IMG/VR virus record: IMGVR_UViG_3300034375_008145
Span: 1-31,525 of that record
Reading direction: 5' to 3' (one strand)
Source: a virus
DNA length: 31,525 nucleotides
In this document: piece after piece, positions 1 to 30,046 of the stretch
How positions within the stretch are numbered: position 1 is the stretch's first letter
Layout of the letters: each line of letters begins with the position of its first letter
Notes under the pieces: generated by a model
Seen by the model: only the letters and a program-made list of their open reading frames with translations
What the model was told of the DNA's origin: nothing
Databases searched by the model: none
Translations under genes and position numbers: made by a program

Positions 1-864
1 ACCGATGATCCCGATTGAAGATGTCCAGAGACCCATAACAGGAACAAACAGCATGAAAAAATGCAACCAACGCTTATTGCTAAACGCAATACCGAAAATT
101 TGTGACCAAAAACGATTAGCCGTAACCATGGAATAAGTTTCTTCTTCCTGAGTCGGTTCAAATGCTTTGAAAGTGTTTGCTTGTTCACCATCTTCAAATA
201 GAGTGTTTTCTACAGTAGCACCATGAATAGCACAGAGCAGTGCTCCTCCCAATATACCAGCAACACCCATCATATGGAAGGGATTGAGCGTCCAGTTGTG
301 GAAACCTTGGAGGAACAAGAGGAACCTGAAGATGGCCGCAACCCCGAACGAGGGGGCAAAGAACCAACTAGATTGCCCGAGAGGGTACATAAGGAAAACG
401 CTGACAAAGACAGCAATCGGGCCAGAGAAAGCAATCGCATTGTATGGTCTAATCCCTACGAGTCTGGCAATCTCAAATTGCCTGAGCATAAAACCTATGA
501 GAGCGAAGGCACCGTGGAGCGCCACAAAAGCCCAGAGTCCCCCAAGTTGGAACCAGCGGACGAGATCTCCCTGAGCTTCTGGACCCCATAGAAGAAGTAG
601 GGAATGTCCGAGAGCGTCAGCAGGAGTTGATACAGCAGCAGTAAGGAAATTACATCCCTCAAGATACGAAGAAGCAATCCCGTGAGTGTACCAGCTTGTG
701 ACGAACGTTGTGCCAGTGAGCCAACCGCCCAGTGCCAGGTAAGCAGTAGGGAACAGAAGAAGACCTGACCAACCAACAAAAACGAACCTATCACGCTTAA
801 GCCAGTCATCGAGTACATCAAACCACCCCCTTGTTTGTTGTTGTGTTAGTGTGCTTGCGACCAT
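1..864 (-). CDS. psbD: Photosystem II reaction centre protein D2 (3' end outside window)
   Basis: D2 binds the photosystem II cofactors together with D1 in the thylakoid membrane; phage copies keep photosynthesis running during infection. I translated 288 codons from the ATG at 864 to the window edge; the usual D2 is about 352 residues, so roughly the last 64 are missing. The N-terminus, Gln129, redox-active Tyr160 (LMYPLG), His189 and chlorophyll ligand His197 (NPFHMMG) fall at canonical positions. An AAGGAAAA ribosome-binding site precedes the ATG. The gene lies downstream of psbA on the same strand but beyond the psbA terminator, so it needs readthrough or its own promoter. Identification is certain; only the C-terminus is unseen. 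Confidence 0.97.
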
Positions 865-958
865 TAGTTTTTTCCTTTTCTTTTTTTAACCAGAATAGTT
901 GAGGGTAAGTATCCATGATAATCTCCCTCAGTTTGTAAGGTGTATTGTCGTCTATCAT
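818..958 (-). CDS. Doubtful 46-aa ORF between psbA terminator and psbD
   Basis: This short frame begins [13 protein letters not shown], has a Lys-rich middle and overlaps the first 47 nt of psbD in another frame. It starts about 10 nt after the psbA terminator and I see no Shine-Dalgarno sequence. The first 30 residues have a protein-like composition; the tail that overlaps psbD does not. It may be a small phage gene, the remnant of a gene once between psbA and psbD, or chance. I do not recognise it. Confidence 0.25.
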
Positions 959-969
959 AGTAGATGAAA

Positions 970-989
970 AAGGGACCCGAAGGTCCCTT
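970..989 (-). terminator. Intrinsic terminator after psbA
   Basis: An 8-bp perfect stem (AAGGGACC/GGTCCCTT) closed by a TTCG tetraloop is followed on the minus strand by five T residues. It lies 42 nt past the psbA stop codon and separates psbA from psbD. Confidence 0.9.
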
Positions 990-1031
990 AGTTGTTTTCC
1001 TAATAAATGACTCTTATTAAGATTACGAGTA

Positions 1032-2111
1032 TCAACCAACAGCAGGTGCGGTGAGTGCAACAGGAGTTGACTCAGCAGCAGCGAGGTCAAGAGGGAAGTT
1101 GTGAGCATTACGCTCATGCATTACCTCCATGCCGAGGTTGGCACGGTTGAGGACATCAGCCCAGGTGTTCAGGACTTTGCCCTGACTATCCATGATGGAC
1201 TGGTTGAAGTTGAAACCGTTGAGGTTGAATGCCATGGTGCTAACACCAAGAGCAGTGAACCAGATTCCTACAACAGGCCAAGCAGCGAGGAAGAAGTGAA
1301 GTGAACGGGAGTTGTTGAAGGATGCATATTGGAAGATTAGACGACCAAAGTATCCATGAGCAGCAACAATGTTGTAAGTCTCTTCTTCTTGACCGAACTT
1401 GTAACCATAGTTCTGGGACTCGTTCTCAGTGGTTTCACGAACTAGTGAAGATGTAACTAGTGAACCGTGCATTGCACTGAATAGTGAACCACCGAAGACA
1501 CCAGCCACACCAAGCATATGGAAGGGGTGCATCAGGATGTTATGTTCTGCCTGGAAAACAAGCATGAAGTTAAAAGTACCACTAATGCCGAGAGGCATAC
1601 CGTCAGAGAAAGATCCCTGACCAAAGGGGTAGACGAGGAAGACTGCAGATGCAGCTGCAACAGGTGCAGAATATGCAACACAGATCCAAGGTCTCATGCC
1701 CAGGCGGTAGGAAAGTTCCCATTCACGACCCATGTAGCAGAAGATGCCGATCAGGAAGTGGAAGACAACCAGCTGGTAAGGACCGCCGTTGTACAGCCAC
1801 TCATCGAGAGAAGCAGCTTCCCAGATGGGATAGAAGTGCAGGCCAATTGCATTAGAGGAAGGAACAACAGCACCAGAGATGATGTTGTTGCCATAGAGAA
1901 GGGAACCTGCAACGGGTTCGCGAATTCCATCGATGTCAACTGGTGGGGCAGCGATGAATGCGATAATGAAACAAAGTGTAGCAGCTAGTAGGGTTGGAAT
2001 CATAAGAGTTCCGAACCAGCCAACATAAAGACGATTGTTGGTGGAAGTTACCCAGTCAGTGAACTGTTCCCAAGTATTCGATTGTTTTTGTGAAAGAGTT
2101 GAAGCGGACAT
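1032..2111 (-). CDS. psbA: Photosystem II reaction centre protein D1, Glu130 (high-light) type
   Basis: D1 carries the electron-transfer cofactors and Mn-cluster ligands of photosystem II and turns over fastest under light stress; the phage copy replaces host D1 during infection. The 359-residue product is full length and uninterrupted. Tyr161, Asp170, Glu189, His190 and His198 are at canonical positions, as are C-terminal Asp342 and Ala344, the processing site, followed by a 15-residue extension. Residue 130 is Glu ([11 protein letters not shown]), the D1:2 form linked to faster photoprotection. The ATG at 2111 has no clear Shine-Dalgarno. The gene has a consensus promoter at 2283-2311, a long leader and a terminator at 970-989, so it can be transcribed alone. 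Confidence 0.98.
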
Positions 2112-2275
2112 TTGAAAAAGGGTTAAGTAAAAGTTCGGGGGAACGAACCAGTTATTAGTATTTCCGTGCCACCCTCCGGCTCGGATATTAGAGACGTGAT
2201 TTAGACTCCCTAGAGGTCTCGGTTTACGGAGAGTTTACAATAGATTAAAAAACGTTACGTTTCTTAACCCATTGA
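2112..2275 (-). promoter_or_regulatory. Long structured 5' leader of psbA
   Basis: The predicted transcript start near 2275 leaves about 165 nt of untranslated leader. It contains a stem of GTTCG/CGAAC at 2133-2148, only about 20 nt before the start codon, and a CCGTGCC/GGCTCGG stem with one internal mismatch at 2164-2184. There is no ORF of note and no Shine-Dalgarno at the start codon. Translational or RNA-stability control is an inference. Confidence 0.45.
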
Positions 2276-2282
2276 CTTATTT

Positions 2283-2311
2283 AGTATAACAGAATCCAGA
2301 GGACCTGTCAA
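2283..2311 (-). promoter_or_regulatory. Sigma70-type promoter of psbA
   Basis: On the minus strand TTGACA (2306-2311) is separated by exactly 17 nt from TATACT (2283-2288). This matches the host vegetative sigma consensus and the same arrangement upstream of other operons in this window (7127-7155, 8629-8657, 23514-23542). The sequence continues as AAATA after the -10. Confidence 0.85.
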
Positions 2312-2324
2312 GGGGTCTAATGGG

Positions 2325-2332
2325 GATAAATA
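2325..2332 (+). promoter_or_regulatory. T4-type late promoter for plus-strand gene block
   Basis: GATAAATA fits the NATAAATA late-promoter element read by gp55-type sigma in T4-like cyanophages. Transcription would start near 2338-2341, 15-18 nt before the ATG at 2356. This supports that start over the ATG at 2320, which would be upstream of the transcript. Confidence 0.65.
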
Positions 2333-2355
2333 GCCCAGCGTCTCAAAACGAGCGA

Positions 2356-2841
2356 ATGAAAAAAGCACTTGTGCTTCTTAGTATGTTAGCGATGGCGGCT
2401 CCTGCACATGCCGATATTACTCATAAAATTTCTTCCTCAGTTCAACTAACAGTTGATGCATCTGCCTCACAGGCAACTCGTCTTGGTTCTACTTATTCGG
2501 TAAGTGGTAGCAATCTTACTGTCACAACACCAGGTGGACTTGGAACACTTAGTTCAGGAAGTGCCGTTGACTATACAGCAACATCTTATACAGCACCCAG
2601 CACAGGGACATACTCTTTTAGCGAATCATTCATTGAAGGAGATGCAATCCCAACAGGAACGACCGTTTCTAGCGGTGTGGTTGGAACCTTACCCGCATTT
2701 GGAAGCGTCACCACAACTGCTGGTGGCGTGGCTGGTGCTCTCGCTGGTACTATCGATAGTACTCACACTATTGGACTAACTGCTGGTGGCTCTGGTACTT
2801 CTGCTACTGGCCAATTTGTATCTGAAATTACTGTTAAATAA
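2356..2841 (+). CDS. Exported Ser/Thr/Gly-rich protein, late gene
   Basis: I do not recognise this 161-residue protein. It has a clear Sec signal peptide (MKKALVLLSMLAMAAPAHA, cleavage near residue 19) and a mature part of Ser, Thr, Gly and Ala in short beta-prone repeats with no Cys, as in secreted fibres or beta-rich surface proteins. I chose the ATG at 2356 because an upstream in-frame ATG (2320) precedes the late promoter and would hide the signal peptide. It is the first of three plus-strand exported proteins under late control. A virion or envelope-associated role is inference. Confidence 0.75.
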   Translation: MKKALVLLSMLAMAAPAHADITHKISSSVQLTVDASASQATRLGSTYSVSGSNLTVTTPGGLGTLSSGSAVDYTATSYTAPSTGTYSFSESFIEGDAIPTGTTVSSGVVGTLPAFGSVTTTAGGVAGALAGTIDSTHTIGLTAGGSGTSATGQFVSEITVK

Positions 2842-2851
2842 CGTATGGTAA

Positions 2852-3289
2852 ATGGTAATGAAACAAATTACAGTTGTGGGTGCCGTTGCTCTAATTGTAT
2901 CGGCACCCCTTTCTGCGACTGCTGTTCCCGTTGTACCAAATTTCACTCAGGGTTCAATGACGAGCCACACAGAGACGACGCAGAAGATAACAGAGACAAT
3001 CAACTCGATGGACTATAACACAGGGTATCAATACTCTATAACTGGTAGTGGTATCTCTGCATCTGGATCATTATCTCCTTCAACATCATCTTCTTCATCA
3101 AATATCAATGGGGTGACTTCAACATGGACTGGATTAAACACACGACCAAACTTTGTTCAGACGACACCAGGGGCTGCATTTCAGTATACAGAAACTTATA
3201 TGGGTCCTGGTTTAAGCAATCAAACAATAATTCAAAGAACGACGGAAATAAAAAGCGTAACAGACACAACAAGTATATTCTCGCAATAA
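2852..3289 (+). CDS. Exported Ser/Thr-rich protein, late gene
   Basis: I do not recognise this protein. The 145-residue product has an N-terminal signal sequence (ITVVGAVALIVSAPLSATA, cleavage near residue 24) followed by a Thr/Ser-rich region with a polyserine stretch near residue 80. It follows the previous gene after 10 nt; starts at 2852 or 2858 are both possible. Composition resembles the upstream neighbour, suggesting secreted or virion-surface proteins acting together. The last 166 nt overlap the next reading frame, whose start is problematic. Confidence 0.7.
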   Translation: MVMKQITVVGAVALIVSAPLSATAVPVVPNFTQGSMTSHTETTQKITETINSMDYNTGYQYSITGSGISASGSLSPSTSSSSSNINGVTSTWTGLNTRPNFVQTTPGAAFQYTETYMGPGLSNQTIIQRTTEIKSVTDTTSIFSQ

Positions 3290-24993: not shown

Positions 24994-25599
24994 TTATGCA
25001 AAAGTTAATTTTTTAACATAATCATATGCATATAGTTCACGATGACCTTTGATTCCCCACCCTAACCAATAATAAGCAGGAACCATATACTGAGAAACTG
25101 TACGGCCTGGACCTTCAAACTCTGGAAGGTAACGTTGGAAGACATTCTCGTTGATCATATATGCAGTCTGACCCTCAAGTGTAGAAGGATCATATCCATA
25201 CTTGGCAGAAAACTTACCAAGTCCATCATAGCGTCCAATAGAGGTCCACTGAATAAGACCATAACCACCAGAATGACACTGGTTATAATTTACCCGAGCA
25301 CCACCTTCACAAATGTTGGGATGGAAATTGCTTTCAGATTTAATGTTACCAAGAATCGTTGCAAGAGCATTACGATCAGTGATTCTTGTTTTCTTTTGAA
25401 GTTCTCCAAGAACGTATTTTTCGTTCTCATTACAGGTTGGACAAGTCCATACCTTTTCTACAACTTCAAGTTTAACTGCCTTCTCCTCGTTGACAGTCAC
25501 ATCAACCTCTGGAGGATTATTGATCTTATCGATTGAAGGATATGCACAAGCGGCAGGAATTGAAATTAAAAGTGAAAGAGGTAGTAGTTTTTTGATCAT
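24994..25599 (-). CDS. Exported lysozyme-like lipoprotein (tail lysozyme / Phage_lysozyme2-like)
   Basis: From MIKKLLPLSL the 201-residue product has a lipoprotein-type signal (SIPAAC, Cys18 the likely lipid site). Its core is KSESNFHPN near residues 88-96 with Glu89 as probable catalytic residue, followed by GGYGLIQWTS and a GRYDGL segment, the pattern of peptidoglycan-cleaving Phage_lysozyme2 proteins. I chose the ATG at 25599, 5 nt after the SegE-like gene; the upstream extension lacks sense. It could degrade host murein at lysis or in superinfection exclusion; export is supported, the role is inferred. Confidence 0.82.
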   Translation of the reverse strand: MIKKLLPLSLLISIPAACAYPSIDKINNPPEVDVTVNEEKAVKLEVVEKVWTCPTCNENEKYVLGELQKKTRITDRNALATILGNIKSESNFHPNICEGGARVNYNQCHSGGYGLIQWTSIGRYDGLGKFSAKYGYDPSTLEGQTAYMINENVFQRYLPEFEGPGRTVSQYMVPAYYWLGWGIKGHRELYAYDYVKKLTFA

Positions 25600-25603
25600 T
25601 AAA

Positions 25604-26083
25604 TTAATTGAATTCGGCATCCACCTCTGTGGGTGGCTCAAAGTAGTCTTTTCGGTAGTACCTTCCGAGGATGTTGCTATTATAGTAGGCAGGGGTGCCA
25701 TCCGTCAAGGCCTCGGTCAGTACATTATTTAGAAAGAGTTGACGTGTCTCTTCATAGTTTACACGCCCTGGGGTTTTATGGAGTGAAAGTATTTCTCTTC
25801 TAAAATTATCCCGTCCATATCTTTTAATATCGTCTTTAAGCTCTGGACAAGAACCATAGTAGTTTCTCCAGTTACTTTCAGACGTAACTCTTCTCCGCTT
25901 TTTAGTCTGATCAGAAACTCTAGGCTTTCGTTTTTGCCAGAAATACTTTCTTCCGATGTAAGAACGGTTGGTGGTGCTACAGGTAATCTTGTAAACAAAG
26001 CCATAGTTGTCCCCAATAAGGCTCCCGTCAAAATCGGTGCCCATATATTGCCAGGGATTTGAATATTCTTTATTTTTTGCCAC
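25604..26083 (-). CDS. SegE/GIY-YIG-like putative endonuclease
   Basis: The 159-residue product begins at a GTG and shows YGFVYKI...SYIGRKYF, a variant of the GIY-YIG core (FVYK...YIG). WRNYYGSC, LKDDIKRYGRDNF and REIL follow, the order seen in T4 SegE and related phage nucleases. These are homing or self-spreading DNA endonucleases. It is intron-free and sits in an operon, so it may have acquired a phage function. The long ORF on the same strand at 25759-26091 is a shadow frame. Confidence 0.75.
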   Translation of the reverse strand: MAKNKEYSNPWQYMGTDFDGSLIGDNYGFVYKITCSTTNRSYIGRKYFWQKRKPRVSDQTKKRRRVTSESNWRNYYGSCPELKDDIKRYGRDNFRREILSLHKTPGRVNYEETRQLFLNNVLTEALTDGTPAYYNSNILGRYYRKDYFEPPTEVDAEFN

Positions 26084-26309: not shown

Positions 26310-26338
26310 ATTGTACATAAAAAAAGGGGACCTGTCAA
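26310..26338 (-). promoter_or_regulatory. Promoter with -35 inside terminator loop
   Basis: TTGACA (26333-26338), 17 nt, TACAAT (26310-26315) on the minus strand. The -35 hexamer is exactly the 6-nt loop of the terminator hairpin at 26326-26345 and the U-tract forms the spacer. Confidence 0.75.
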
Positions 26339-26345
26339 GGCCCCC
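26326..26345 (-). terminator. Terminator of the late RGG-protein operon
   Basis: GGGGACC/GGCCCCC, a 7-bp stem with one G-U pair and loop TGTCAA (TTGACA on the transcribed strand), is followed by T7 on the minus strand, 17 nt after the gene ending at 26363. Confidence 0.88.
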
Positions 26346-26362
26346 TTCGGATTGATTAAAAA

Positions 26363-26794
26363 TTAGACTCCACCGTGTCTTGCTGGATCAAACTGACTTA
26401 AACCATAAGTGGCAGTATCAAGTGAACTAAATCCACCGCCGCCACGACCTCCACGACCACTACTACGACCACCACGTCCACCTTTACTCGTATTTCTCAG
26501 GAGCTGCTGACGATACCGCATATCTGCACGGGTGCCACTATCCATTCTACCCTGAGATCCAGGTTTGGTACTGCCGCCTGGGTCAGGTTGCATACCAGGG
26601 TTTGCTGCCTTGACTCTGCTACCGTGAGTGTATTCAGCACCACTCATGGTTCCAGTGCCAGAAACCATACTACCTCCAGGAGAACGTGAGTTCGCATATT
26701 GTGTGGAAGTTTGACCATGCCTACCAGCATAACGCTGTCGCCCTTGCTCATAAATGTCGTATGCTTGTTCCGAAAACTGTCTAAATGTTTTCAT
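26363..26794 (-). CDS. RGG-rich protein with capsid-targeting-like N-terminus (A)
   Basis: The 143-residue product begins MKTFRQFSEQAYDIYEQ, close to the T4 capsid-targeting sequence of internal head proteins (MKTYQEFIAEA). FSE|QA would suit the gp21-type protease, which cuts after a short hydrophobic-x-Glu. The middle is Gly/Ser/Arg/Tyr-rich and low complexity; a GAR/RGG block (GGRGGRSSGRGGRGGGGF) precedes the shared C-terminus FSSLDTATYG...FDPARHGGV. It is a tandem paralog of the next gene, in a late operon. A packaged, injected or DNA-neutralising internal protein is a hypothesis. Confidence 0.72.
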   Translation of the reverse strand: MKTFRQFSEQAYDIYEQGRQRYAGRHGQTSTQYANSRSPGGSMVSGTGTMSGAEYTHGSRVKAANPGMQPDPGGSTKPGSQGRMDSGTRADMRYRQQLLRNTSKGGRGGRSSGRGGRGGGGFSSLDTATYGLSQFDPARHGGV

Positions 26795-26799
26795 TGTAA

Positions 26800-27141
26800 T
26801 TAAACCCCACCAAGTCTTGCTGGATCAAACGAGCCAATACCATAAGGTCCTGGCGTTGCGGTGTCAAGTGAACTAAATCCACCCCCACCACGACCACTAC
26901 GGCCACCTCTACTTTGATTTCTCAGTGCCTTACGACTCAATTTCTTAATCTGTTTAGGGGTAAGAACTTCCCCTTCACCACTTGGGCCAGCATCGGGAAC
27001 CCAGTTACTAGGAGGAGTATAGTTGCTTCCAAAAGACTTAATGTTGGCCTTCACACGCTGAGTATGTTGTTTGTTACTAGTACGACGTGAATCTTCTTCG
27101 ATATCGTATGCTTGTTCGGAAAACTGTCTAAACGTTTTCAT
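26800..27141 (-). CDS. RGG-rich protein with capsid-targeting-like N-terminus (B)
   Basis: The 113-residue product starts MKTFRQFSEQAYDIEEDSRR, identical over its first 14 residues to the protein at 26363-26794. It also shares a C-terminal block (GGRSGRGGGGFSSLDTATPG...FDPARLGGV) with a divergent middle containing basic and Pro/Asn-rich stretches. I chose the ATG at 27141; the frame upstream runs through the 533-aa gene and is a shadow. Its 5' end lies 5 nt after the stop of the large gene. Confidence 0.72.
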   Translation of the reverse strand: MKTFRQFSEQAYDIEEDSRRTSNKQHTQRVKANIKSFGSNYTPPSNWVPDAGPSGEGEVLTPKQIKKLSRKALRNQSRGGRSGRGGGGFSSLDTATPGPYGIGSFDPARLGGV

Positions 27142-27146
27142 TGTAA

Positions 27147-28736
27147 TCAGACTCCTTTTAGACCACCATATTTGTACTGTGGGTTTCCTTGCTGATAACG
27201 CTTCCAAGCTTCATTGTTTAGTTTCTTGTCAAGATCAGTAACTGTGTAAACTTTCTTCGCCTCCATAGCGAGAAGTTCAATATTCTCATCATCCATCTCG
27301 GAGATGATGTAGTTTGCTTCGTCAATGGACTGAGCTTCACCGTTCCAAATAAGGAACTCAACCATTGCAGACTCCAAATAGACCTGCTCAAGGATGCTGT
27401 TGATGAATTGATCACTCATACCCTCAATCATGCTTAGAGCGCCGTCTAGGGTATCTGCATACCCCTCAGTGAAGAGGTGGTTGACCACTAGGTCTAGTTC
27501 GTTAGACTCCTTCTTTGTCTTCGGTGCAAGGTAATCTTGGATTTCTTTATATCCAGACTGTCCTGGTTTAACTTTCTTAGCAAGTTCTGGGAAATTCTTT
27601 GCCCATTTTTGCATTTTAGTTAATCCAGAAGAATCAGATTGCTTCGTAGGAGTTGATGTAGATCCACCACCAGAGCCAACCACAGGTATTCTAACTGGTC
27701 CAGTTGATCCACCACCGCTACGAGGAGCAGGAGCAGTTGATCCACCACCGCTACGAGGAGCAGTTGATCCACCACCGCCACCGCCGCTGGAAGGAGCAGG
27801 AGCTCTTTCATCACCAGCTCTTGGTCTGATAGGAGCACCACCTGGTGATGCTGGGCCTTTTGGAGCAGGAGCTCTTTCATCACCAGCTCTTGGTCTGATA
27901 GGAGCTCCGCCTCCTGTTGAGGGTTCTTTTTTCGGCGTTGGAGAAGGTGTTCCAGGTTGGCCATACTTAGGATTGTTATACTGACCTTCTTGGGGTGGAA
28001 TGTTTGCCAGTCCAGTTCCAGTCCTACTTGGCCGTGTAGGAGAAGGTGTTGGTCTACCAGAACCTTGTCCAGGGCCTTGTCTACCAGAACCTCCTTTTTT
28101 ATCACTGCCGCTACTAGTAGCAGTTGATCCACCACCGCCACTACGATTCTGAAGATCTCGAACTGCCTGTCTACCTACAATACCCCCTGCGACGGAAGTT
28201 ACTGGCCCTGCGACAGCACCCAAAGTACTTCCAACAGCACCACCAACAGCGCGGGGTACTTCTCTTTTTGTAGTTGCTACGACGTTTGATACTATTTCCT
28301 TACCTTTTTGTACTCCACGATTAAGAGTTCTTCTACCTTTGTCAATCAAACCCTTCAAAAATTCCTGTAGGTCCTCTTCATTGAGTCTGCTGGCAAGCCT
28401 GTTGACAATCTCTGGAGACTCATTCTTCATTCTGGTTGCCATGGCACCAGGAATATATCTCAGATGAGTTTCATATAGACCTGTGGACTCATTGACGTTC
28501 TTAAGAACTTCTTCGGAATCAAGAGCCTGTTCAAAGACATCAAGAATTTTTCCGATTGAAGATCTCTCGAAAAATTCTTTAACGTCAGACTCAACATAAC
28601 CATTCTCAATCATGTGTACACCAACACAGTTGATAATGCTTTCTGCAATCTGCTTTAATTCTTCAGTTTGCTGTCTATTGGCGTAGACATTACCATAAGA
28701 CTCAACAAGTCCTTTTAATTGATTAGAGGGCTGCAT
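27147..28736 (-). CDS. Large Gly/Pro/Ser-rich virion-type protein
   Basis: About 529 residues from the ATG at 28736 (MQPSNQLKGL). A helical N-terminal domain (1-160) carries many acidic residues. The long central low-complexity part holds two copies of a GGAPIRPRAGDERAPAP unit and repeated SGGGSTAP motifs. The C-terminal domain (DLVVNHLFTEGYADTLDGALSMIE) resembles segments found in structural proteins of cyanophages. A late promoter precedes it. A TTG at 28748 has a better-spaced AGGAAAA site, so the first codon is open. Virion or internal-head function is inferred. Confidence 0.75.
   Translation of the reverse strand: MQPSNQLKGLVESYGNVYANRQQTEELKQIAESIINCVGVHMIENGYVESDVKEFFERSSIGKILDVFEQALDSEEVLKNVNESTGLYETHLRYIPGAMATRMKNESPEIVNRLASRLNEEDLQEFLKGLIDKGRRTLNRGVQKGKEIVSNVVATTKREVPRAVGGAVGSTLGAVAGPVTSVAGGIVGRQAVRDLQNRSGGGGSTATSSGSDKKGGSGRQGPGQGSGRPTPSPTRPSRTGTGLANIPPQEGQYNNPKYGQPGTPSPTPKKEPSTGGGAPIRPRAGDERAPAPKGPASPGGAPIRPRAGDERAPAPSSGGGGGGSTAPRSGGGSTAPAPRSGGGSTGPVRIPVVGSGGGSTSTPTKQSDSSGLTKMQKWAKNFPELAKKVKPGQSGYKEIQDYLAPKTKKESNELDLVVNHLFTEGYADTLDGALSMIEGMSDQFINSILEQVYLESAMVEFLIWNGEAQSIDEANYIISEMDDENIELLAMEAKKVYTVTDLDKKLNNEAWKRYQQGNPQYKYGGLKGV
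27793..27905. repeat. 44-bp direct repeat, 69-bp period
   Basis: The same 44 nt occur at 27793-27836 and 27862-27905, 69 bp (23 codons) apart, encoding the two GGAPIRPRAGDERAPAP copies of the large late protein. Shorter Ser/Gly-coding repeats lie just before, at 27705-27780. Confidence 0.85.
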
Positions 28737-28762: not shown

Positions 28763-28770
28763 TATTTATA
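28763..28770 (-). promoter_or_regulatory. T4-type late promoter
   Basis: TATAAATA on the minus strand, the perfect T4 late element, ends 27 nt before the ATG at 28736. It directly follows the T-tract of the terminator at 28776-28799. It drives the 533-aa and the two RGG-rich genes. Confidence 0.8.
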
Positions 28771-28775
28771 AAAAA

Positions 28776-28799
28776 AAGAGGGGCACTATCACCCCTCTT
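28776..28799 (-). terminator. Terminator after nrdB block
   Basis: AAGAGGGG/CCCCTCTT, an 8-bp stem with an 8-nt loop, is followed by a T-tract (28777-28770) that runs directly into a late promoter. It ends the nrdA-nrdB-34-aa transcript and overlaps the stop codon of the 34-aa gene. Confidence 0.9.
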
Positions 28800-28893
28800 T
28801 CTTAGATATAATGGGAGTCAATGGATCAATGCGATCCATCTCCTTCCATATTTGTTCAAAGTTTGAATCCCGAGAAGGTGTCTTTTTTGACAT
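28789..28893 (-). CDS. 34-aa gene overlapping the end of nrdB
   Basis: The frame (MSKKTPSRDSNFEQIWKEMD followed by RIDPLTPIISKKEG) starts inside nrdB (38-nt overlap) and ends within the terminator hairpin. Its charged, protein-like composition and placement in the last open space before the terminator support it, but length and overlap make it tentative. Function unknown. Confidence 0.5.
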   Translation of the reverse strand: MSKKTPSRDSNFEQIWKEMDRIDPLTPIISKKEG

Positions 28894-30046
28894 CTTGCTT
28901 AATTCCACCGACGACATAACTTTCTACCTCAGTTTCTTGTGGGGCAACTTGTAGTCCTTTAGAAGAAATCCAGTGTTCAGTCCAGGGAAGAGGATTGTTT
29001 TTAGCCGATACATCAAAGATTGGTTTGATACCAATAGCTTTCATGCGGCGATTCGCAATCCATTCCACATATTTTTGTAATAGTTTATCATTTAAACCAA
29101 TCATAGATCCATCCTTGAACAGATATTCTGCCCAAAGTTTTTCCTGATTGACTGCATTTTCAAAAGTTTTAATAACCCAAGATTCTTCTTCCCTTGCAAT
29201 ACGCTTCATTTCAGGGTCGTCACCCTCAGCCCACTTTTTAAGAATGTTCTGGGTGATTACCAAGTGCTGATTTTCGTCCCTGGCGATAAGGCTAATGATT
29301 TTAGCCGATCCTTCCATAAGCTTAAGTTCGCCAAATGCGAATGAGCACGCGAAGGAGACATAGAATCTAATTCCTTCCAGGATGTTGACGTTAGCGACTG
29401 CTCGGTAAAGTTTTCTTTTGAGTTCATAGAGTGTGTTTGCGGCTGCAGGTACTCCATCTAAGACATGTTGCCATTCATTTCCTGAAGCATATGTTGCTGC
29501 AGAAGAAATAAAATCATCATATGATTCGGTCACTGACGCTGCTCGCTCAAGAATTCTAGGTTCTTTTACGATAGTGTCAAATACGTCTGATGGATTCGCG
29601 TATACATTTTTAATAATGTATGTATAACTACGGGAATGGATCATCTCCATAAATTCCCATACTTTCATACAAGCTTCCAGTTCAGGAAGAGAACAATATG
29701 GAGCAAATGCCATACCAGGACCCCTTCCTTGAACAGAGTCTAGCATAACCTGATACTTTAGATTAGAAGTAAAGATATGTTTCTGCTCAGGGCGAAGAGT
29801 CTGATAGTCAGCCCTATCCTTTTGCAAAGAAACTTCTTCGGGACGCCAGAAATATCCAAGTTGCTGAGTTGTTAGTTTATCAAAAATTGGATACTTGTAA
29901 GAGTCATACCTCTGGACACCCAGAGGTTTCCCAAAAAACATTGGTTGTTTAGTTGTATCGACAGACTCAGAGTTGAAAACTGTAAAGGATTCAACCCGAG
30001 ATACTTCTGTATTTTCAGAGTTTGTCTTAAATCTTACAAGACTCAC
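28856..30046 (-). CDS. nrdB: Ribonucleotide reductase class Ia beta subunit
   Basis: NrdB holds the diiron-tyrosyl radical that starts reduction of ribonucleotides to deoxyribonucleotides for phage DNA. The 396-residue product has iron ligands Asp103, Glu134 and His137 with the radical Tyr141 (IHSRSYTY), a later DENQH pair, and a C-terminal tail (VGGIKQDVKKDTFSGFKL) that binds NrdA. The start is a GTG at 30046 with a strong AGGAGG site, inside the end of nrdA (20-nt overlap), so the subunits are translationally coupled. Confidence 0.97.
   Translation of the reverse strand: MSLVRFKTNSENTEVSRVESFTVFNSESVDTTKQPMFFGKPLGVQRYDSYKYPIFDKLTTQQLGYFWRPEEVSLQKDRADYQTLRPEQKHIFTSNLKYQVMLDSVQGRGPGMAFAPYCSLPELEACMKVWEFMEMIHSRSYTYIIKNVYANPSDVFDTIVKEPRILERAASVTESYDDFISSAATYASGNEWQHVLDGVPAAANTLYELKRKLYRAVANVNILEGIRFYVSFACSFAFGELKLMEGSAKIISLIARDENQHLVITQNILKKWAEGDDPEMKRIAREEESWVIKTFENAVNQEKLWAEYLFKDGSMIGLNDKLLQKYVEWIANRRMKAIGIKPIFDVSAKNNPLPWTEHWISSKGLQVAPQETEVESYVVGGIKQDVKKDTFSGFKL

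Follow-up and report, generated by a model that had tools for sequence, protein, structure and literature searches.

Two tandem cassette-like proteins of a T4-like cyanophage as candidate protease-processed internal head proteins

Two short, basic proteins with matching N-termini are encoded in tandem on a virus record, and the question that they raise is whether such proteins are directed into the phage head, processed there and carried with the DNA. The window analyzed here, meaning the whole 31.5 kb stretch of the record, belongs to a T4-like, Kyanoviridae-type cyanophage, and Synechococcus phage S-T4 is the nearest deposited relative over the region of the two genes. Both open reading frames, here P1 (143 aa) and P2 (113 aa), were confirmed on the minus strand. 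Gp21 and the capsid genes are absent from this 31.5 kb fragment. We read P1 and P2 as probable capsid-targeted, gp21-processed internal head proteins that are built as exchangeable cassettes and made late, with a probability of about 0.72. The basis of this reading is sequence: the operon, the duplicated tag and tail, the conservation of the cargo modules, the position of a putative protease site and the "virion protein" label on a module-bearing homolog.

Operon and late promoter motif

The genes and signals of the operon are as follows.

26363–26794, minus strand: P1 precursor, 143 aa; predicted mature protein residues 17–143, pI 11.5; PHROG_1418 match, E = 7e-16
26800–27141, minus strand: P2 precursor, 113 aa; predicted mature protein residues 17–113, pI 11.0; full-length match to S-CAM9 gp093 (70%)
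27147–28736, minus strand: P3, 529 aa, multi-module protein, first gene of the operon; homologs in the same place in S-T4 and other viral contigs
28763–28770, minus strand: T4-type late promoter motif TATAAATA for P3-P2-P1; exact motif, 26 nt before the P3 ATG (28736)
26323–26348, minus strand: terminator-like hairpin and T run after P1, from sequence

The genes stand in the order P3-P2-P1 in tight succession up to the terminator, with P2 and P1 as the last genes. The preceding nrdB unit closes with a hairpin and a T run, and the promoter motif follows immediately. As TATAAATA occurs once in the window and 1.7 copies are expected by chance, the count proves nothing, and it is the position that matters. 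In S-CAM9, the same motif is found 23–37 nt before a baseplate gene, a small gene between the portal and the head protease, the head-locus polyprotein gp096, gp092 and the MKTF-tagged gp084. An earlier note on this DNA had placed P1 and P2 behind a late promoter; the motif does head their operon, but it precedes P3 rather than P1 and P2 directly. The promoter motif is the single indication that P1 and P2 are expressed late, and its place before the operon, together with its occurrence before structural and head-locus genes of S-CAM9, supports late expression. Another candidate late motif, CTAAATA, was dropped, with 5 matches in comparison to 5.7 expected.

P3 is composed of a leader (MQPSNQLKGLVE-SYGNVY), a helix-pair segment, a YTVT segment and a GGLKGV end, and segments of the types at its C-terminus are also present in S-SCSM1 ORF89, a protein labelled as a virion protein. 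P1 and P2 are missing at this place in S-T4 and in contigs L197–L199, where the next small gene comes straight after the P3 homolog, and they are therefore accessory.

Some features around the operon were observed separately. A 42-residue open reading frame (MSSVELSKMSKKTPSRDSNF...DRIDPLTPI; 28789–28917, minus strand) overlaps the 3' end of nrdB and is kept in contigs L197–L201, and is therefore probably a real small gene. At 25604–26083 (minus strand), the PHROG_447 "NAD synthetase" of many cyanophages also matches GIY-YIG homing endonuclease families, and the synthetase name looks wrong. The PHROG_512 protein that adjoins the operon (24997–25701, minus strand) gives weak endolysin and tail matches.

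Leader, cargo module and tail

Each protein can be divided into a leader, a cargo module, a linker and a tail, all on the minus strand.

26747–26794, minus strand: P1 leader MKTFRQFSEQAYDIYE, predicted cut between I-Y-E and Q; 38/42 nt (first 42) as in the P2 leader
26498–26731, minus strand: P1 cargo module M1 (YAGRHGQ...MSGAEYTHGSRVKAANPG...YRQQLL); 43 invariant columns in a 45-sequence alignment
26432–26482, minus strand: P1 Arg-Gly-rich linker GGRGGRSSGRGGRGGGG, from sequence
26366–26431, minus strand: P1 C-terminal tail FSSLDTATYGLSQFDPARHGGV; weak likeness to the N-arm of the mature cyanophage major capsid protein
27094–27141, minus strand: P2 leader MKTFRQFSEQAYDIEE, predicted cut after Glu16, between I-E-E and D; F4 and F7 present; Glu16 in 7/7
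26923–27093, minus strand: P2 cargo module M2 (DSRRTSNKQHTQRVKANIKSFGSNYTPP...); DSRRTSNKQHTQRV invariant; found inside polyproteins of L090, L092–L094 and S-BM3
26878–26910, minus strand: P2 Arg-Gly-rich linker RGGRSGRGGGG, from sequence
26803–26877, minus strand: P2 C-terminal tail FSSLDTATPGPYGIGSFDPARLGGV; tail common to P1, S-CAM9 gp093, L010–L012 and L189

The shared start MKTFRQFSEQAYDI and the common blocks FSSLDTAT and FDPAR.GGV, which had been noticed before, were borne out in both translated open reading frames, whose C-termini read ...FSSLDTAT...FDPAR(H/L)GGV. The Arg-Gly-rich stretch had been assigned to the middles of the proteins and is actually found between middle and tail (P1 aa 105–121, P2 aa 78–88). 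The tags of P1 and P2 are identical at 38 of 42 nt and the tails also align closely in DNA, while the middles are unrelated, with a local score of 24.0 compared to a shuffle mean of 25.7. The likeness of the two genes is therefore not due to chance, and the unrelated cargo regions rule out that they are plain duplicates. As judged by sequence comparison, P1 and P2 are cassettes in which the same leader, Gly/Arg linker and tail surround a differing cargo module. The earlier note had missed this arrangement, as well as the recurrence of the cargo inside long multi-module proteins.

The predicted mature forms are small and basic (127 and 97 residues; 13.1 and 10.2 kDa). A Pfam search gave no match for either P1 or P2, a PDB sequence search gave none for P1, and no PDB relative points to a function. 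The AlphaFold models have mean pLDDT values of 58 and 62, a confidence so low that the fold says nothing on function.

M1 corresponds to PHROG_1418, whose profile matched residues 15–98 of P1 and gave no match to P2. M1 has matches in 194 sequenced cyanophage records and in 160 stretches of viral contigs, and M2 is rarer, with occurrences in S-CAM9 gp093, S-BM3 gp186 and contigs L090–L094. The modules are mostly segments of longer proteins in a locus that also contains NMNAT, gp186 and a string of structural genes; contig L087 has two M1 copies within one protein, and L093 has M1 and M2 in tandem. The cargo of P1 is the conserved module of PHROG_1418 proteins such as S-SM2 gp186, S-RIM2 SWUG_00156 and S-SCSM1 ORF89, but in those proteins it is an internal segment, whereas P1 is short and stands alone with its own leader and tail. 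P2 and S-CAM9 gp093 have the same leader type, M2, linker and tail and match over their full length. Whereas P2 lies behind nrdB, gp093 is part of the main head locus, close to gp096 and NMNAT; it also has Asp10 in its leader and no M1 partner adjoining it. At the syntenic place of the window, contig L189 encodes a 953-residue protein with the same linker and tail end as P1.

Targeting residues and putative prohead-protease site

The consensus of T4 gp21 is hydrophobic-x-Glu, and the relatives S-SCSM1 and S-CAM9 have an annotated gp21-family prohead protease. Cleavage after Glu is common to T4 gp21 and related proteases (PMC9026906, PMC5694885), and in the tag of T4 IPIII residues 4 and 7 serve targeting and residues 8 and 10 processing (PMC9026906). 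The targeting residues F4 and F7 are present in P1, P2 and S-CAM9 gp093. At the processing positions, the hydrophobic residue 8 and Glu10 of T4 are absent from P1 and P2, which have S8 and Q10. The T4-like capsid-targeting N-terminus proposed in the earlier note is therefore retained for its targeting residues and finds no match in its processing residues.

Open reading frames with the tag pattern number 5 in S-CAM9 (4 of them annotated plus-strand genes) with 0.16 expected, and 2 in S-SCSM1 with 0.09 expected. Among NMNAT proteins of the fetched loci, 31 of 33 distinct N-termini carry the T4-like aromatic-x-x-F-hydrophobic-x-E pattern. This enrichment bears on the alternative that P1 and P2 are not head proteins at all, but late cytoplasmic RGG nucleic-acid-binding proteins with a chance or lineage-specific tag. 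The RGG and GRGG repeats near the C-terminus and a pI of about 10–11 would agree with such proteins; however, there are only three RGG triplets in P1 and two in P2, and the tag enrichment, the related tag on a virion-detected NMNAT and the location of the modules beside head-locus genes make this alternative very improbable.

The case for processing of P1 and P2 as internal head proteins comes from a site that is kept in front of the modules. Hydrophobic-x-Glu is found at one fixed position before M1 in 55 of 56 distinct contexts when Tyr is allowed (54/56 with a strict hydrophobic set) and in 30 of 31 when contexts with similar flanks are removed, the background frequency of the motif being 3.2% per position. 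The sole exception is P1 of the window itself, in which I-Y-E stands upstream of the module at a distance four residues greater than elsewhere, so P1 could be uncut. Directly before M2 the motif is present in all seven contexts, with Glu16 invariant, and it precedes a third segment, GVRD.DPEKGT, in 9/9; the rule is weaker for two further segments, DPVGKED and DDTYLET. Head-locus proteins have no general excess of the motif (about 2 per 100 aa, as in the portal), and it is therefore only the fixed position before modules that is informative. That position makes it probable, as had been suggested before, that P1 and P2 are processed by a gp21-type prohead protease.

The cut itself had been predicted after Glu9 (FSE). 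A hydrophobic14-x-Glu16 site is common to P1 (I-Y-E), P2 (I-E-E), S-CAM9 gp093 (I-Q-E) and a gene of contig L201, and this site, together with S8 and Q10 in P1 and P2, places the predicted cut after Glu16 instead. The sequences thus make cleavage after Glu16 more likely than after Glu9, with residues 8 and 10 being S and Q and FSE9 not being kept in gp093. We also considered that the same leader brings P1 and P2 into the head and that they then remain uncut or are cut at Glu9 only. F-S-E does fit hydrophobic-x-Glu, cleavage of the T4 IPIII tag follows residue 10, and sites close to this position are also found in other polyprotein leaders (SLSE in S-SCSM1 ORF89, LDKLSE in L189). In addition, gp093 has Asp10, a residue that in T4 IPIII blocks cutting and not targeting (PMC9026906). 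This alternative is nevertheless unlikely, as gp093 is without F-S-E, P1, P2, gp093 and the L201 gene all keep hydrophobic14-x-Glu16, and the site before M2 is Glu16 in each of its seven contexts.

The same leader, EALQIMTQMALDE, stands before M2 in L090 and before M1 in L025, and the site is fixed, so that exchange of the modules seems to take place at the putative protease site. Modules in long head-locus proteins are likewise set off by hydrophobic-x-Glu, so the protease probably frees them too. The location of cargo segments just after a probable head-protease site in many related viruses makes it probable that P1 and P2 are packed in the head, and they may enter the host. As a separate observation, the L189 polyprotein (199–3057) contains five repeats of [SN][SYF].PEG.x-hydrophobic-x-E, which are probably repeated protease sites; similar motifs are present in S-CAM9 gp096.

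Virion evidence and proposed role

In the S-SCSM1 record, ORF89 (which contains M1), ORF90, the NMNAT ORF91, ORF92, ORF93 and ORF97 are labelled as virion proteins. Mass spectrometry of S-SCSM1 virions yielded 45 proteins, with ORF91 named (PMC9602691), and about 48 genes of the record carry the label, which makes it a near but inexact proxy for detection. ORF89 is not named in the main text of that paper (PMC9602691). An NMNAT/cytidylyltransferase was detected in S-SM1 virions (PMC3037559), an NMNAT-type protein and its neighbor gene 139 in S-SZBM1 virions (PMC9146016), and an NMNAT-type protein and the neighboring ORFs 155 and 156 in S-CREM2 virions (PMC10665884). The cyanophage virion NMNAT/cytidylyltransferase (T4-GC190, PHROG_764) resembles P1 and P2 in its T4-like targeting leader, resides in the same locus as the modules and has been detected in virions by mass spectrometry; unlike P1 and P2, it is an enzyme with a canonical site near residue 10 and without an RGG linker or tail. 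Separately, the 710 aa Sf-CH5 "cytidyltransferase" (L008 3694–5826) lacks the FGRFNPP nucleotidyltransferase motif; by sequence it is probably a mislabelled P3-type multi-module head protein.

The virion label also bears on whether P1 and P2 could be parts of the scaffold core, like T4 gp67 and gp68, which give the prohead its shape before being fragmented and expelled. Gp21-type sites directly before modules would suit such a fate, and the core proteins of T4 are cleaved to small fragments, most of which are lost from the head (PMC9026906). With module-bearing S-SCSM1 ORF89 labelled as a virion protein, and the mature P1 and P2 being basic, unlike the Glu-rich scaffold gp22 (20% Glu), we consider this explanation decidedly unlikely.

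Internal proteins that stay in the head are the closer comparison. Like T4 IPI, IPII and IPIII, P1 and P2 are small, basic and apparently late, with the leader M-K-T-aromatic4-x-x-F7 and a hydrophobic-x-Glu site, and their predicted 16-residue propeptide is within the 10–19 residue range of the T4 internal proteins. They differ from these in that residues 8 and 10 are not processing residues and the cut is probably at 16, in that they share a C-terminal tail and have cargo that is also found in multi-module proteins, and in that the mature proteins are without detectable relation to a known family.

The tail FSSLDTAT...FDPAR is similar to a part of the cyanophage major capsid proteins, the arm just behind their cleavage site (GGFSSASTATGPVAGFDPVL in L112). 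With a matrix made from 67 capsid arms, the P1 tail ranked 5th of 4041 open reading frames, behind two capsid and two small head proteins, and shuffled sequences scored as high in 38 of 20000 cases for the P1 tail and 7191 of 20000 for the P2 tail. The tails of P2 and S-CAM9 do not stand out with this matrix, and a gapped HMM of the capsid arm gave no significant tail match, so a relationship of tail and capsid arm is only suggestive. A clear capsid arm is present in the head-locus proteins of PHROG_696, S-SCSM1 ORF97 and S-CAM9 gp090 (E 9e-8 and 4e-6). These have the G[FY]...[FY]DP peptide in common with P1 and P2, but their arm is near the N-terminus, whereas the tail of P1 and P2 is C-terminal and weakly arm-like. 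Close copies of the capsid N-arm were also observed in small PHROG_696 head proteins of other contigs (L096 43121–43306; L103 35836–36069; L038 3865–4722), and several PHROG_696 arm copies sit behind a hydrophobic-x-Glu site. In T4, the N-fist of gp23 touches four neighboring subunits and arises in expansion, as N-terminal regions shift to the outer capsid surface (PMC9958956). On this precedent, docking of an arm-like peptide on the shell is conceivable.

For P1 and P2 as internal head proteins, the following course can be proposed. The precursors would be synthesized late, F4 and F7 of the 16-residue leader would steer them into the prohead core, and a gp21-family protease would cleave after Glu16 (I-x-E). 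The very basic mature proteins would then stay in the head with the DNA and possibly be ejected into the host together with the genome, in the manner of the T4 internal proteins and Alt. Packaging and cleavage in the phage of the window are what we infer, while ejection and action in the host are speculative. By this analogy, P1 and P2 would most likely act as DNA-associated internal proteins that accompany the genome into the host. More doubtful is a general cut-and-release cargo system of T4-like cyanophages, in which conserved peptides, either joined in polyproteins or set in single-gene cassettes, would be swapped from phage to phage precisely at prohead-protease sites and freed in the head; in the cassettes, the tail would dock on the inner shell as a mimic of the capsid arm and the Arg-Gly linker would hold DNA.

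Capsid-tagged packaged proteins, a T4 theme, and the cyanophage virion NMNAT are already known. In searches of an open literature library, we found no description of cyanophage module strings bounded by prohead-protease sites or of tag-cargo-tail cassettes. If the modules are head cargo released by the protease, the residue at which each piece starts becomes predictable, and virion mass-spectrometry files that already exist can be used to check it. This reading suggests how T4-like phages of the ocean may add and swap the proteins that are delivered with their DNA.
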